From a virus: a stretch of 64,000 nt of DNA. Location: IMG/VR virus record IMGVR_UViG_3300036790_000317, positions 1 to 64,000 of that record; one strand, written 5' to 3'. Position numbers and translations under genes: made by a program. Below the pieces are notes generated by a model. The model searched no databases. It saw only the letters and a program-made list of their open reading frames with translations, and had not been told where the DNA came from. Positions 6,308-59,739 of this stretch are shown here, piece by piece. Every line of letters begins with the position of its first letter. Position 1 is the stretch's first letter.

Positions 6308-6439
6308 TCAGAGCCCGTCACCAGCGTCCGCGCAGCACGCCGCCCAGAGCGCCGCCGCCCAGTCCGAGAGTGCGGCGGCATCGGCAGCATCCGCGGCCGA
6401 GATGGCCGCGCCGGAGGCGCCGCCGCCGAGGTCACCCAC
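6308..6439 (-). CDS. 43-residue Ala-rich peptide
   Basis: A GTG at 6439 overlaps the end of the upstream gene and opens a frame of mostly A, D, G, W and L codons with high GC at third positions. A competing frame starting at a nearby GTG runs much longer but is Arg/Pro-rich and opposes 6018-6299. Existence is uncertain. Confidence 0.35.
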   Translation of the reverse strand: MGDLGGGASGAAISAADAADAAALSDWAAALWAACCADAGDGL

Positions 6440-6698
6440 CCCGCGCCTCGGTGATGATGGCGGCGAGCGCGGTGCGCTCGGCGGGAGCGAGCGAGGCCGT
6501 GACGCCCCGCACGAGGCCGGCCAGCTCCTGGCTGGTGAGCTGGAACGACTTGACGTAGGTGCCGCGGCCGATGCTGATCAGCCAGCGGTACCGCCCAGAG
6601 CCTGGTGACACGGTGATGGTGCTCGCCGGGGGATCACCAGACCCGTTCTGCGTCACGCCCTTAAGGAGGGCGGCCGCGCCTTCACGGTTGTTGGACAT
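6432..6698 (-). CDS. Hypothetical protein, 88 aa
   Basis: A soluble protein with a central beta-rich part and a C-terminal helix (L-A-P-A-E-R-T-A-L-A-A-I-I-T-E-A). GGGAG before the ATG at 6698 supports this start over the one 27 nt upstream. The tRNA-like minihelix at 6764-6803 lies in its leader. Not recognised. Confidence 0.6.
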   Translation of the reverse strand: MSNNREGAAALLKGVTQNGSGDPPASTITVSPGSGRYRWLISIGRGTYVKSFQLTSQELAGLVRGVTASLAPAERTALAAIITEARGG

Positions 6699-6763
6699 GA
6701 TTATCACTCCCACTTCCACTTCCATTTTTCCTTCCGTCCCGCCATCAGGTGATGGCGGCGCGC

Positions 6764-6803
6764 GCCTCCGTGCGGAATCGAACCGCTTCGCCAGTGCGGA
6801 GGC
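6764..6803 (-). ncRNA. 40-nt tRNA acceptor/T-arm minihelix, copy 1
   Basis: Read on the minus strand: GCCTCCG, a 10-nt linker, the T-arm GCGG-TTCGATT-CCGC, one A, then CGGAGGC. The two 7-nt ends pair perfectly, giving the coaxial acceptor/T-arm half of a tRNA with no D or anticodon arm. The T-loop has the full tRNA consensus (TTCRA, closing G-C). An identical architecture with a different but still self-complementary acceptor occurs at 7421-7460. It lies in the leader of the 6698 gene. Whether it is transcribed or processed is unknown. Confidence 0.6.
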
Positions 6804-6833
6804 TCCTTCTCCTCCTCCTCCTCCTCCTCCTGC

Positions 6834-7061
6834 TCAGTTCCCGTAGCCGGTGACCCGGACCCAGGTCCCGTCCGTGCAGACGCGCTCGGTTCCGCCAGCG
6901 CGGGTAGCGTCACCGGATGGCAGCGCCGGCCGGGTGCAGGCCCGAGGTGAGGGCGGGGGTGCCGGCCGTGAGGCTAGCCCGTTTCCGGTGAGCAGCCCGC
7001 CGGCGAAGCCGGTCGTGGCTGCGAGGATGATGGCCGGGACTGCTAGCCTTGTCCGTACCAT
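6834..7061 (-). CDS. Small secreted or membrane-anchored protein
   Basis: A 75-residue product whose first 30 residues are signal-like (V-R-T-R then an A/I/L-rich helix). It continues into a short Pro-rich linker and a C-terminal part with two cysteines. GGAAGGAAGGAAGG precedes the ATG. The 27-bp inverted repeat at 7130-7214 lies upstream and could control it. Confidence 0.6.
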   Translation of the reverse strand: MVRTRLAVPAIILAATTGFAGGLLTGNGLASRPAPPPSPRACTRPALPSGDATRAGGTERVCTDGTWVRVTGYGN

Positions 7062-7129
7062 GGGTACCTTCCTTCCTTCCTGATCCCAGACAGATGTTTG
7101 TCTGACCTCTGTCTGGCGCCTGTCTGATC

Positions 7130-7214
7130 TTGTCCAGCATTTGTCTGATCTTGCTCAAAACCCCGTGACCACGGTCTGGACACGCTAGAGCAAGATCAGA
7201 CAAATGCTGGACAA
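7130..7214. repeat. Perfect 27-bp inverted repeat with TGTCTG motifs
   Basis: Positions 7130-7156 are the exact reverse complement of 7188-7214, separated by 31 nt. The left flank (7090-7129) contains further TGTCTG/CAGACA copies. It is far longer than a usual intrinsic terminator and has no T-run. It lies about 70 nt upstream of the leftward gene starting at 7061, in a stretch (7062-7488) without other genes, so an operator cluster or attenuator is plausible. Confidence 0.7.
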
Positions 7215-7260
7215 CTATCTCGATTTGACGGCCCATGCTAAGCTACAACTGGCGTTTCCG

Positions 7261-7286
7261 CACCGCCCATGCTCTTCCGGGCGGTG
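7261..7286. terminator. Hairpin, possibly bidirectional terminator
   Basis: CACCGCCC and GGGCGGTG pair across a 10-nt loop. TCGTTTC follows on the plus side. It lies between the inverted repeat and the second minihelix. Confidence 0.4.
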
Positions 7287-7420
7287 TCGTTTCTGGCTTG
7301 ATCATCCAGACGTGGCTGGGCCAGCCAGGGGGGACGGCGCACCCGCCGAGGTGGCGGTCGCTCTATACTCCCTTGCGAGGGAGAGCCGCTGACTTGTGAT
7401 CTTGCCCTGGCTGGCCCTGT

Positions 7421-7460
7421 GTCCCGGTGCGGAGTCGAACCGCCTGCCCGGTTCCGGGAC
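7421..7460 (-). ncRNA. 40-nt tRNA acceptor/T-arm minihelix, copy 2
   Basis: Minus strand: GTCCCGG, a 10-nt linker, GCGG-TTCGACT-CCGC, A, CCGGGAC. It has the same lengths and T-arm as 6764-6803, but the acceptor stem differs at several positions while staying fully paired, i.e. compensatory change. The gene-free stretch 7300-7488 shows no other feature apart from a short CTCCC/GGGAG hairpin. Confidence 0.6.
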
Positions 7461-7488: not shown

Positions 7489-7761
7489 TCAGATTCCGCC
7501 GGCGCGCCGGAACGCGCGGCGCAGGTGCCGGTCTCCCCACCAGATGGCGGGGTGGCGGAGCACGAACGCGGCGCGGTCGCGGTGGATGCGGGCGGAAAGC
7601 CCGCACGCCTTGCGGCGGGTACTGCCGCATGCCCTCGCCGCCCCGTAGATGCCGGGGTGCGTGAGCGCGCGGTGGCGGCCGGCGCCACGCCCGAGGCGCC
7701 GGTGGTTGCCGGCTCCCGGGAGCGGGGCGTGACGGCCGGTACTGCGAGTGGTGCTGATCAT
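7489..7761 (-). CDS. Small very basic protein
   Basis: A 90-residue product with about 20 arginines and many histidines. The start at 7761 follows CAGGAAGGAACG. The composition suggests RNA or DNA binding, but no motif is recognised. Confidence 0.55.
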   Translation of the reverse strand: MISTTRSTGRHAPLPGAGNHRRLGRGAGRHRALTHPGIYGAARACGSTRRKACGLSARIHRDRAAFVLRHPAIWWGDRHLRRAFRRAGGI

Positions 7762-7799
7762 GGCGTTCGTTCGTTCCTTCCTGTGGTAGCTGGCGGCGC

Positions 7800-7958
7800 C
7801 TACTGCCACCGCGAGTTGCGGCGCTGCGACTCCCACAGCATCTCGATCCGGTTGCGGCGCATGGTCTCCCGCGTCCGGGTGTCGCACTCGGTGCAGGGCC
7901 GCGTGCAGATGCCGTGGTCGTTCCGCTCACGGCGGATGACCATGACGATGGTGCGCAT
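7800..7958 (-). CDS. 52-residue cysteine/arginine-rich protein
   Basis: The ATG at 7958 follows AAGGGAG. The protein begins with a beta strand (R-T-I-V-M-V-I-R-R), then has C-T-R-P-C-T-E-C and an Arg-rich helix, so a small zinc-knuckle protein is likely. Not recognised. Confidence 0.55.
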   Translation of the reverse strand: MRTIVMVIRRERNDHGICTRPCTECDTRTRETMRRNRIEMLWESQRRNSRWQ

Positions 7959-59465: not shown

Positions 59466-59544
59466 CATGAAGCCTGGCGCTCTGCCCCTTGAGCTACGGG
59501 CCGTCGTAGCCGACCCGGCCGGTTTCGAACCGGCAACCTCCATT
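59466..59544 (-). tRNA. Permuted tRNA gene B (3' half before 5' half)
   Basis: On the minus strand the T-arm GCCGG-TTCGAAA-CCGGC and 3' acceptor CGGGTCG come first. A 7-nt linker follows, then the 5' acceptor CGGCCCG, TA, and a canonical D-arm GCTC-AAGGGGCA-GAGC. The acceptor halves pair over 7 bp (one G-U). T8, A14, G18G19, A21 and the T-loop consensus are present. No partner halves exist in the normal order. Flanking sequence also pairs (CCGGGA with TCCCGG; CCAGCG with CGCTGG), as intron-like ends would. Only 3 bp of the anticodon stem (CCA/TGG) form by simple joining, so the anticodon is unresolved. Confidence 0.6.
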
Positions 59545-59609
59545 GCCTTGCACCCGGGAAGGGGATCCAGCGTACAGCAGCAAGCTAAGCCTGCGAGCGA
59601 GAATCTCAG

Positions 59610-59687
59610 CCTCAGGGCCGGTGCTCTGTCCTTTGAGCTACCCCTGCATGCGCGCAGGGGCCAGGAATCGAACCTGGATCTTCCGCT
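59610..59687 (-). tRNA. Permuted tRNA gene A (3' half before 5' half)
   Basis: Minus strand: T-arm CCAGG-TTCGATT-CCTGG and 3' acceptor CCCCTGC, a 6-nt linker, then 5' acceptor GCAGGGG (perfect 7-bp pairing), TA, D-arm GCTC-AAAGGACA-GAGC. Around the missing anticodon loop the flanks can form CCG/CGG, a GAAG bulge, a GCCCTG/CGGGGC helix and an AGGC bulge, resembling a bulge-helix-bulge splice site. Anticodon identity is not resolved. There is no alternative normal-order partner nearby. Confidence 0.6.
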
Positions 59688-59739
59688 TCGCCCCGTGAGC
59701 CTTAATCTCAGTCTCAGTCTGTTGCTCGTGTCTATTGTA

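Follow-up and report, generated by a model that had tools for sequence, protein, structure and literature searches.

The two elements described here, E1 and E2, each 40 nt long, are members of a widespread and apparently undescribed family of look-alikes of the tRNA top half. They lie in a window of 64,000 nucleotides, bases 1-64,000 of a 97,920-base (97.9-kb) virus record. We think it rather probable that E1 and E2 are inter-cistronic minihelices at which host tRNA-processing enzymes would split the phage message. For the broader proposal, that 40-nt tRNA mimics form an RNA class of at least two bacterial phyla that divides polycistronic mRNAs via host RNase P and RNase Z, we regard the case as evenly balanced.

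Two tRNA-like top halves and their flanking genes

The features around the two elements are as follows.

6764..6803 (6803-6764), minus strand: E1 mini-tRNA; 12-layer helix, T-loop TTCGATT, linker CACTGGCGAA; matched by covariance models R1 and R2
7421..7460 (7460-7421), minus strand: E2 mini-tRNA; T-loop TTCGACT, linker AACCGGGCAG; matched by R1 and R2
6834..7061, minus strand: gene preceding E1; 75 aa with a hydrophobic N-terminus; stop codon 30 nt ahead of E1
6736..6757, minus strand: short hairpin CGCCATCACCTGATGGCG; follows E1 and comes ahead of the ribosome-binding site
6432..6725, minus strand: gene following E1; 97 aa if started at ATG 6725, 88 aa if at ATG 6698; GGAAGGA ahead of it
7489..7887, minus strand: open frame preceding E2, from which its stop codon is 28 nt away; translation may really begin at ATG 7761

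In order, E1 consists of GCCTCCG CACTGGCGAA GCGG TTCGATT CCGC A CGGAGGC, and E2 of GTCCCGG AACCGGGCAG GCGG TTCGACT CCGC A CCGGGAC. The dimensions that the first-pass annotation had given for them, with perfect 7-bp stems, a 4-bp T-stem, the T-loop and a single A, are all accurate, and the compensatory change that it claimed is present: three of the seven stem pairs differ between E1 and E2, with pairing kept. It was also right that D and anticodon arms are absent. Only a 10-nt linker is found, ARAGORN called nothing in the E1/E2 region (6.7-7.5 kb), and Rfam gave no match there at gathering score and no relevant one below it. Three features had been overlooked. Both linkers contain GG (ACTGG in E1, ACCGG in E2); the helix has exactly 12 layers when the A mismatch is counted (7 outer pairs, the mismatch and 4 inner pairs, the mismatch being the outer T-stem pair); and positions 73-74 are RC in both, GC in E1 and AC in E2, as they are in most tRNA genes of the window's own phage.

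Folding of the single sequences is unremarkable, with z-scores of -0.26 (E1) and -0.88 (E2), no better than shuffled sequence, and a tRNA-like fold within 0.3-1.1 kcal/mol of the minimum. Because thermodynamic folding alone gives no support, the case for E1 and E2 rests on comparison. PHROG gave no match for the genes on either side of E1 or for the frame upstream of E2, a search for viral relatives of the E1-downstream gene found none, BLAST of the 1-kb E1/E2 region against phages had no match, and relatives of the terminase, in phage records as in viral contigs, were at most about 43% identical.

Downstream of E1, the short hairpin and GGAAGGA precede ATG 6725, which lies 38 nt from the element, and this order of stop codon, 30 nt, element, hairpin, ribosome-binding site and start fits the gap pattern seen in other phages (below). 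E2 fits it less well, and may instead border a longer untranslated stretch, since the next clear start, at 7061, is about 360 nt away. Two inverted repeats occupy that interval. One, near-perfect and long (TTGTCCAGCATTTGTCTGATCTTGCTC and its complement, with a loop of about 30 nt), spans 7130-7214 between E2 and the gene at 7061; the other, GGGCCAGCCAGGG ... CCCTGGCTGGCCC at 7318-7416, lies directly 3' of E2, encloses further hairpins and could be a larger structured RNA.

A covarying helix of tRNA length

Two covariance models were used. R1 was built from 12 equal-length elements of other phages, none from the window, and R2 from 7 other contigs that had been found with the window's own T-arm, so that its E-values are flattered. 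Equal-length sets were chosen because MAFFT misaligned the outer strands of unequal-length elements. With the whole record searched, R1 scored E1 at 27.7 bits (E 0.0035) and E2 at 28.2 bits (E 0.0027), E-values that are rough given the short calibration; R2 scored them at 51.8 and 48.6 bits. R2 and part of the relatives were gathered with window-derived patterns, and their likeness to E1 and E2 is thus partly by construction; the cleaner evidence is R1 together with the statistics from annotated phages. By both models, E1 and E2 share what defines the mini-tRNA family, namely a 12-layer helix, a T-loop, a GG linker of about 10 nt and no other arms.

Across the family, the common architecture is this helix capped by a tRNA T-loop, with a linker that usually carries GG and with neither D nor anticodon arm. 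In the usual form 6 outer and 6 inner pairs have the linker between them, a common linker being ATGGTCGCAG. Twelve layers is the length of the tRNA acceptor and T-stem stack. Among the 12 aligned R1 elements, 11 of the 12 pairs vary on both sides, giving a covariation score of 0.745, where shuffled controls give 0.139 and sliding the partner strand at most 0.18. Nine 40-mers of the E1/E2 subtype covary at all seven outer pairs (0.712 versus 0.171). The first-pass reading of tRNA top-half mimicry with covarying stems therefore holds as far as it is testable. The helices include 20 G-U pairs. A mean of 11.6 of 12 layers is paired; with the outer strands exchanged among elements the mean is 8.95, a control that allows for the optimization of layer counts over linker position. 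The helix also ends sharply: 95-96% of copies have their outermost layer paired, and only 25-39% the layer beyond it. Covariation by itself is compatible with RNA or with folded single-stranded DNA.

Two further tRNA-like details are less uniform. GG near the 5' end of the linker occurs in 24 of 28 copies that were not selected for it, where shuffles average 17 and reach that count in 5 of 2000, so the excess is real but modest; by analogy, this GG could pair with the T-loop as G18-G19 does in tRNA. RC at positions 73-74 is present in 27 of 28 annotated-phage copies and in 16 of 38 copies outside actinophages. These two bases correspond to the start of the RCCA stretch, which base-pairs with the RNA of RNase P (PMC11143913).

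Occurrence in phages, a plasmid and bacterial chromosomes

Many homologues were found, in phages, a plasmid and bacterial genomes, so the lack of homologues that the first-pass annotation had named as part of a refutation is not borne out. R1 has 14 matches in Gordonia phage VanLee and 10 in Cafasso, counts that include R1 training copies, and one contig has 7. The places listed also include Mycobacterium phage Indlulamithi (12), Morgana (10), Trine (3), MakoManhole (3), Journey13 (2), Dagobah (2), StAB (1), the S. ambofaciens prophage Samy (1, weak) and plasmid pGBRO01 (1), and one or a few copies each occur in other Mycobacterium, Gordonia, Streptomyces and Corynebacterium phages. The named actinophages were reached by short BLAST searches.

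Outside phages, R1 finds copies on actinobacterial chromosomes, on a Gordonia plasmid and in a genome of Hymenobacter, where there are two, so that the family reaches beyond Actinomycetota. Ten bacterial genomes (3.4-13.6 Mb) that carry the linker pattern have 1-5 copies each at E <= 0.001, mostly together at one place. This clustering fits putative accessory islands; the Nonomuraea copies adjoin genes such as WhiB and NUDIX.

Viral contigs were also scanned for the shared T-arm GCGGTTCGANTCCGCAC, which gave at least 120 stretches, ordinary tRNAs among them. Three contigs have the same top-half architecture with 9-10-nt linkers (L042, L049, L118), and three have longer linkers with CTGG and an extra hairpin (L063, L015, L108). 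A second scan, for the T-arm plus GG at the E1 spacing, added more contigs, some of them with several different copies (such as L138, L174 and L179). In L063, L015, L051, L108, L135 and L155 the element stands on the coding strand just ahead of an SD and start codon. Contigs such as L010, L053 and L071, with 20-38-nt linkers and a possible D-like arm, were kept out of the family.

Two further loci were noticed along the way. At about position 64,770 of the record (L186:750-810, minus strand) a further mini-tRNA-like element, TGCCGTT ... GCGAG TTCGAAT CTTGC AACGGCA, with a hairpin in its 22-nt linker, lies inside the tRNA array. At L025:4596-7252 there are three identical mini-tRNAs with encoded CCA within 2.7 kb, and ARAGORN finds no tRNA nearby. 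Encoded CCA is confined to a few relatives (e.g. L025, L106), and the first-pass suggestions of 3' CCA addition, charging and EF-Tu binding found no support.

Position and orientation between genes

In VanLee all 14 matches, and in Cafasso all 10, are intergenic over their whole length, which 11% and 9% of positions, respectively, would allow. All 24 are also in sense orientation, with p ~1e-14 for the VanLee placement and ~1e-11 for that in Cafasso, and the two elements among Cafasso's rightward genes likewise point rightward. Gap after gap between leftward genes in these phages holds one element, with stems that differ and remain paired. Typically the element begins 7-15 nt after a stop codon and ends 30-50 nt before the next start; the distance to the start varies from 13 to >100 nt because extra hairpins are inserted. 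The order of element, hairpin and SD in the E1 gap recurs in VanLee and Cafasso gaps. The orthologues VanLee gp161 and Cafasso gp153 (44% identical) both have an element in the gap before them, the stem being GCCCTGC...CCAGGGC in VanLee and GCCCGGA...GCCGGGC in Cafasso, different and yet paired in each.

One other RNA-related locus in VanLee deserves mention. A gene for a Ro-like RNA-binding protein lies near a tRNA-Arg and a T-arm element (L190:5300-7400; VanLee 65.3-67.4 kb), and this locus possibly encodes a phage Y-RNA-like (YrlA) RNA.

Proposed RNase P processing and its alternatives

RNase P is reported to cleave acceptor/T-arm model substrates efficiently in vitro and needs only the acceptor/T half of tRNA (PMC11143913); it measures the T/acceptor stack from the elbow, and MALAT1 is one of its non-tRNA substrates (PMC4919913). 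As RNase P needs this half, measures its length, and the nearest Rfam model to the VanLee copies is mascRNA, we take cleavage by host RNase P as the likeliest function. That the elements recur between genes as a kind of punctuation in operons was out of reach of the first-pass annotation; it speaks for an RNA-processing signal acting in cis and against a stand-alone RNA or a leader switch.

In our model, each element would act within the mRNA of a phage or mobile element, folding as the acceptor/T-arm half of a tRNA, and the linker GG would dock on the T-loop as G18-G19 does in tRNA. Host tRNA-processing enzymes would then read the 12-layer ruler: RNase P would cut on the 5' side, about 10 nt past the stop codon of the preceding gene, and a 3' nuclease, RNase Z or another, might cut after the discriminator base. 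The polycistronic transcript would thus yield pieces with defined ends at gene boundaries, each translated from an SD 30-50 nt downstream, with a presumed effect on expression. Several results count against this reading, namely the poor fit of the E2 gap, the variable start distances, the unremarkable folding of E1 and E2, the lower consistency of RC outside actinophages and the modest GG excess.

Next after RNase P cleavage we rank a role in translation or stability without any cut, which we consider unlikely. The element would shield the 5' side of a cistron, or recruit the ribosome or a factor that binds the T-loop or elbow, and so aid initiation or insulate genes. Its placement between a stop codon and the next SD, typically 30-50 nt on, suits such a role, as do the hairpin and conserved leader that often follow; the variable distance to the start does not, and a mere roadblock would have no need of a full 12-layer ruler with RC at 73-74.

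Then come decoy and DNA-level roles, both improbable, the latter by a shade the more so. As decoys, many tRNA-like tops would occupy RNase P, T-loop modification enzymes, SmpB, EF-Tu or tRNA-cutting defence nucleases. Genomes with up to 14 copies would be consistent with this, and in several of the phages the elements are accompanied by genes for tRNAs or RNA repair, but many genomes have only 1-3 copies, a decoy would not need to sit just behind the stop codon in each gene gap, and the anticodon arm, where anticodon nucleases cut, is missing here. At the DNA level, the elements would be cassette boundaries or recombination sites acting as folded DNA, like integron attC. Gene order is indeed shuffled between VanLee and Cafasso, with many units carrying an element. 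Nevertheless, the tolerance of G-U pairs, a T-loop specific to tRNA and the RC at 73-74 point to RNA, the copies share too little sequence for homologous exchange, and no dedicated integrase was seen linked to them.

Finally, that the elements are remnants of full tRNA genes whose D and anticodon arms were lost independently, an outcome that the first-pass annotation had named as fatal to its own reading, is very improbable and for E1 and E2 was rejected: a large tRNA array does lie in the same contig (17 ordinary tRNAs by ARAGORN at 60.6-63.8 kb of the window, continuing past it), but dozens of copies have stems that covary and are intact, share a linker motif that recurs (ATGGTCGCA) and keep a constant place between genes, several of them in stretches without annotated tRNA genes.

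Close to that array, at 59540-59730 on the minus strand, ARAGORN called nothing in native order; as it accepts many artificial joins, testing in this way is weak. The locus has a T-arm and 3' acceptor strand (CCAGGTTCGATTCCTGGCCCCTGC), six bases, and then the matching 5' acceptor strand and a D-arm (GCAGGGGTAGCTCAAAGGACAGAGC), an arrangement that looks like a circularly permuted tRNA gene.

Relation to known RNAs and significance

No Rfam family matches the mini-tRNA elements. E1 and E2 are absent from the Rfam match list, and the nearest model to the VanLee copies, mascRNA (RF01684), is sub-threshold at 22.5-26.8 bits against a gathering score of 42.5. mascRNA and menRNA (RF01684; MALAT1, MEN beta) are likewise tRNA-like top halves inside a longer transcript, and mascRNA is released by RNase P and RNase Z. 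They are, however, eukaryotic, with 56 model positions and further small arms, and occur once per transcript, whereas the phage elements stand in many copies between genes. With tRNA (RF00005) and the tRNA punctuation of organelles the phage elements have in common the T-loop, the 12-layer stack, RC at 73-74 and the position between reading frames, but they lack the D-stem, the anticodon arm and usually CCA, and are invisible to ARAGORN and Rfam. The minimal substrates of RNase P (acceptor stem plus T-arm) and its natural non-tRNA substrates use the same tRNA domain; the model substrates are designed, while the phage elements are natural and repeated and have a GG-bearing linker. The tRNA-like domain of tmRNA also combines acceptor and T-arm with a D-loop-like GG and no D-stem. 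A tmRNA reading of E1 and E2 was nonetheless rejected: they are without the tag reading frame and the G3-U70 alanine signal, the third pair being C-G in both, and no tmRNA was found.

Actinophages are reported to have start-associated repeats (PMC3203893, PMC7302621), and Gordonia cluster DJ to have intergenic repeats of unspecified kind (PMC9753669). SAS/ESAS and other such repeats likewise recur in short gaps just before starts (PMC3203893, PMC7302621, PMC9753669), but as published they are short conserved (13-bp) repeats or inverted repeats of 17-18 bp, none of them reported to have a tRNA-like fold. Literature searches and Rfam 15 yielded no description of the present elements, although earlier notice is possible in subscription journals, preprints or annotation forums; the first-pass remark that no phage RNA of this shape had been described thus stands as far as it is testable. 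The principle of a tRNA-like processing signal is known; what appear to be new are this family, its minimal 40-nt form and its repeated use as phage gene punctuation.

If our reading is correct, bacterial viruses have a counterpart of organellar tRNA punctuation and of MALAT1/mascRNA, which would show how certain phages divide up long series of small genes once these have been transcribed. A large collection of natural minimal RNase P/Z substrates would also become available, and one type of conserved gap in the genomes of actinophages would be accounted for. Annotators would gain a strand-specific marker of where genes start. For Octobien14 gp139 (L192:22346-22388) and Trine gp40 (L304:1271-1541) the annotated start is overlapped by an element, and for this reason both starts have probably been called too far upstream.
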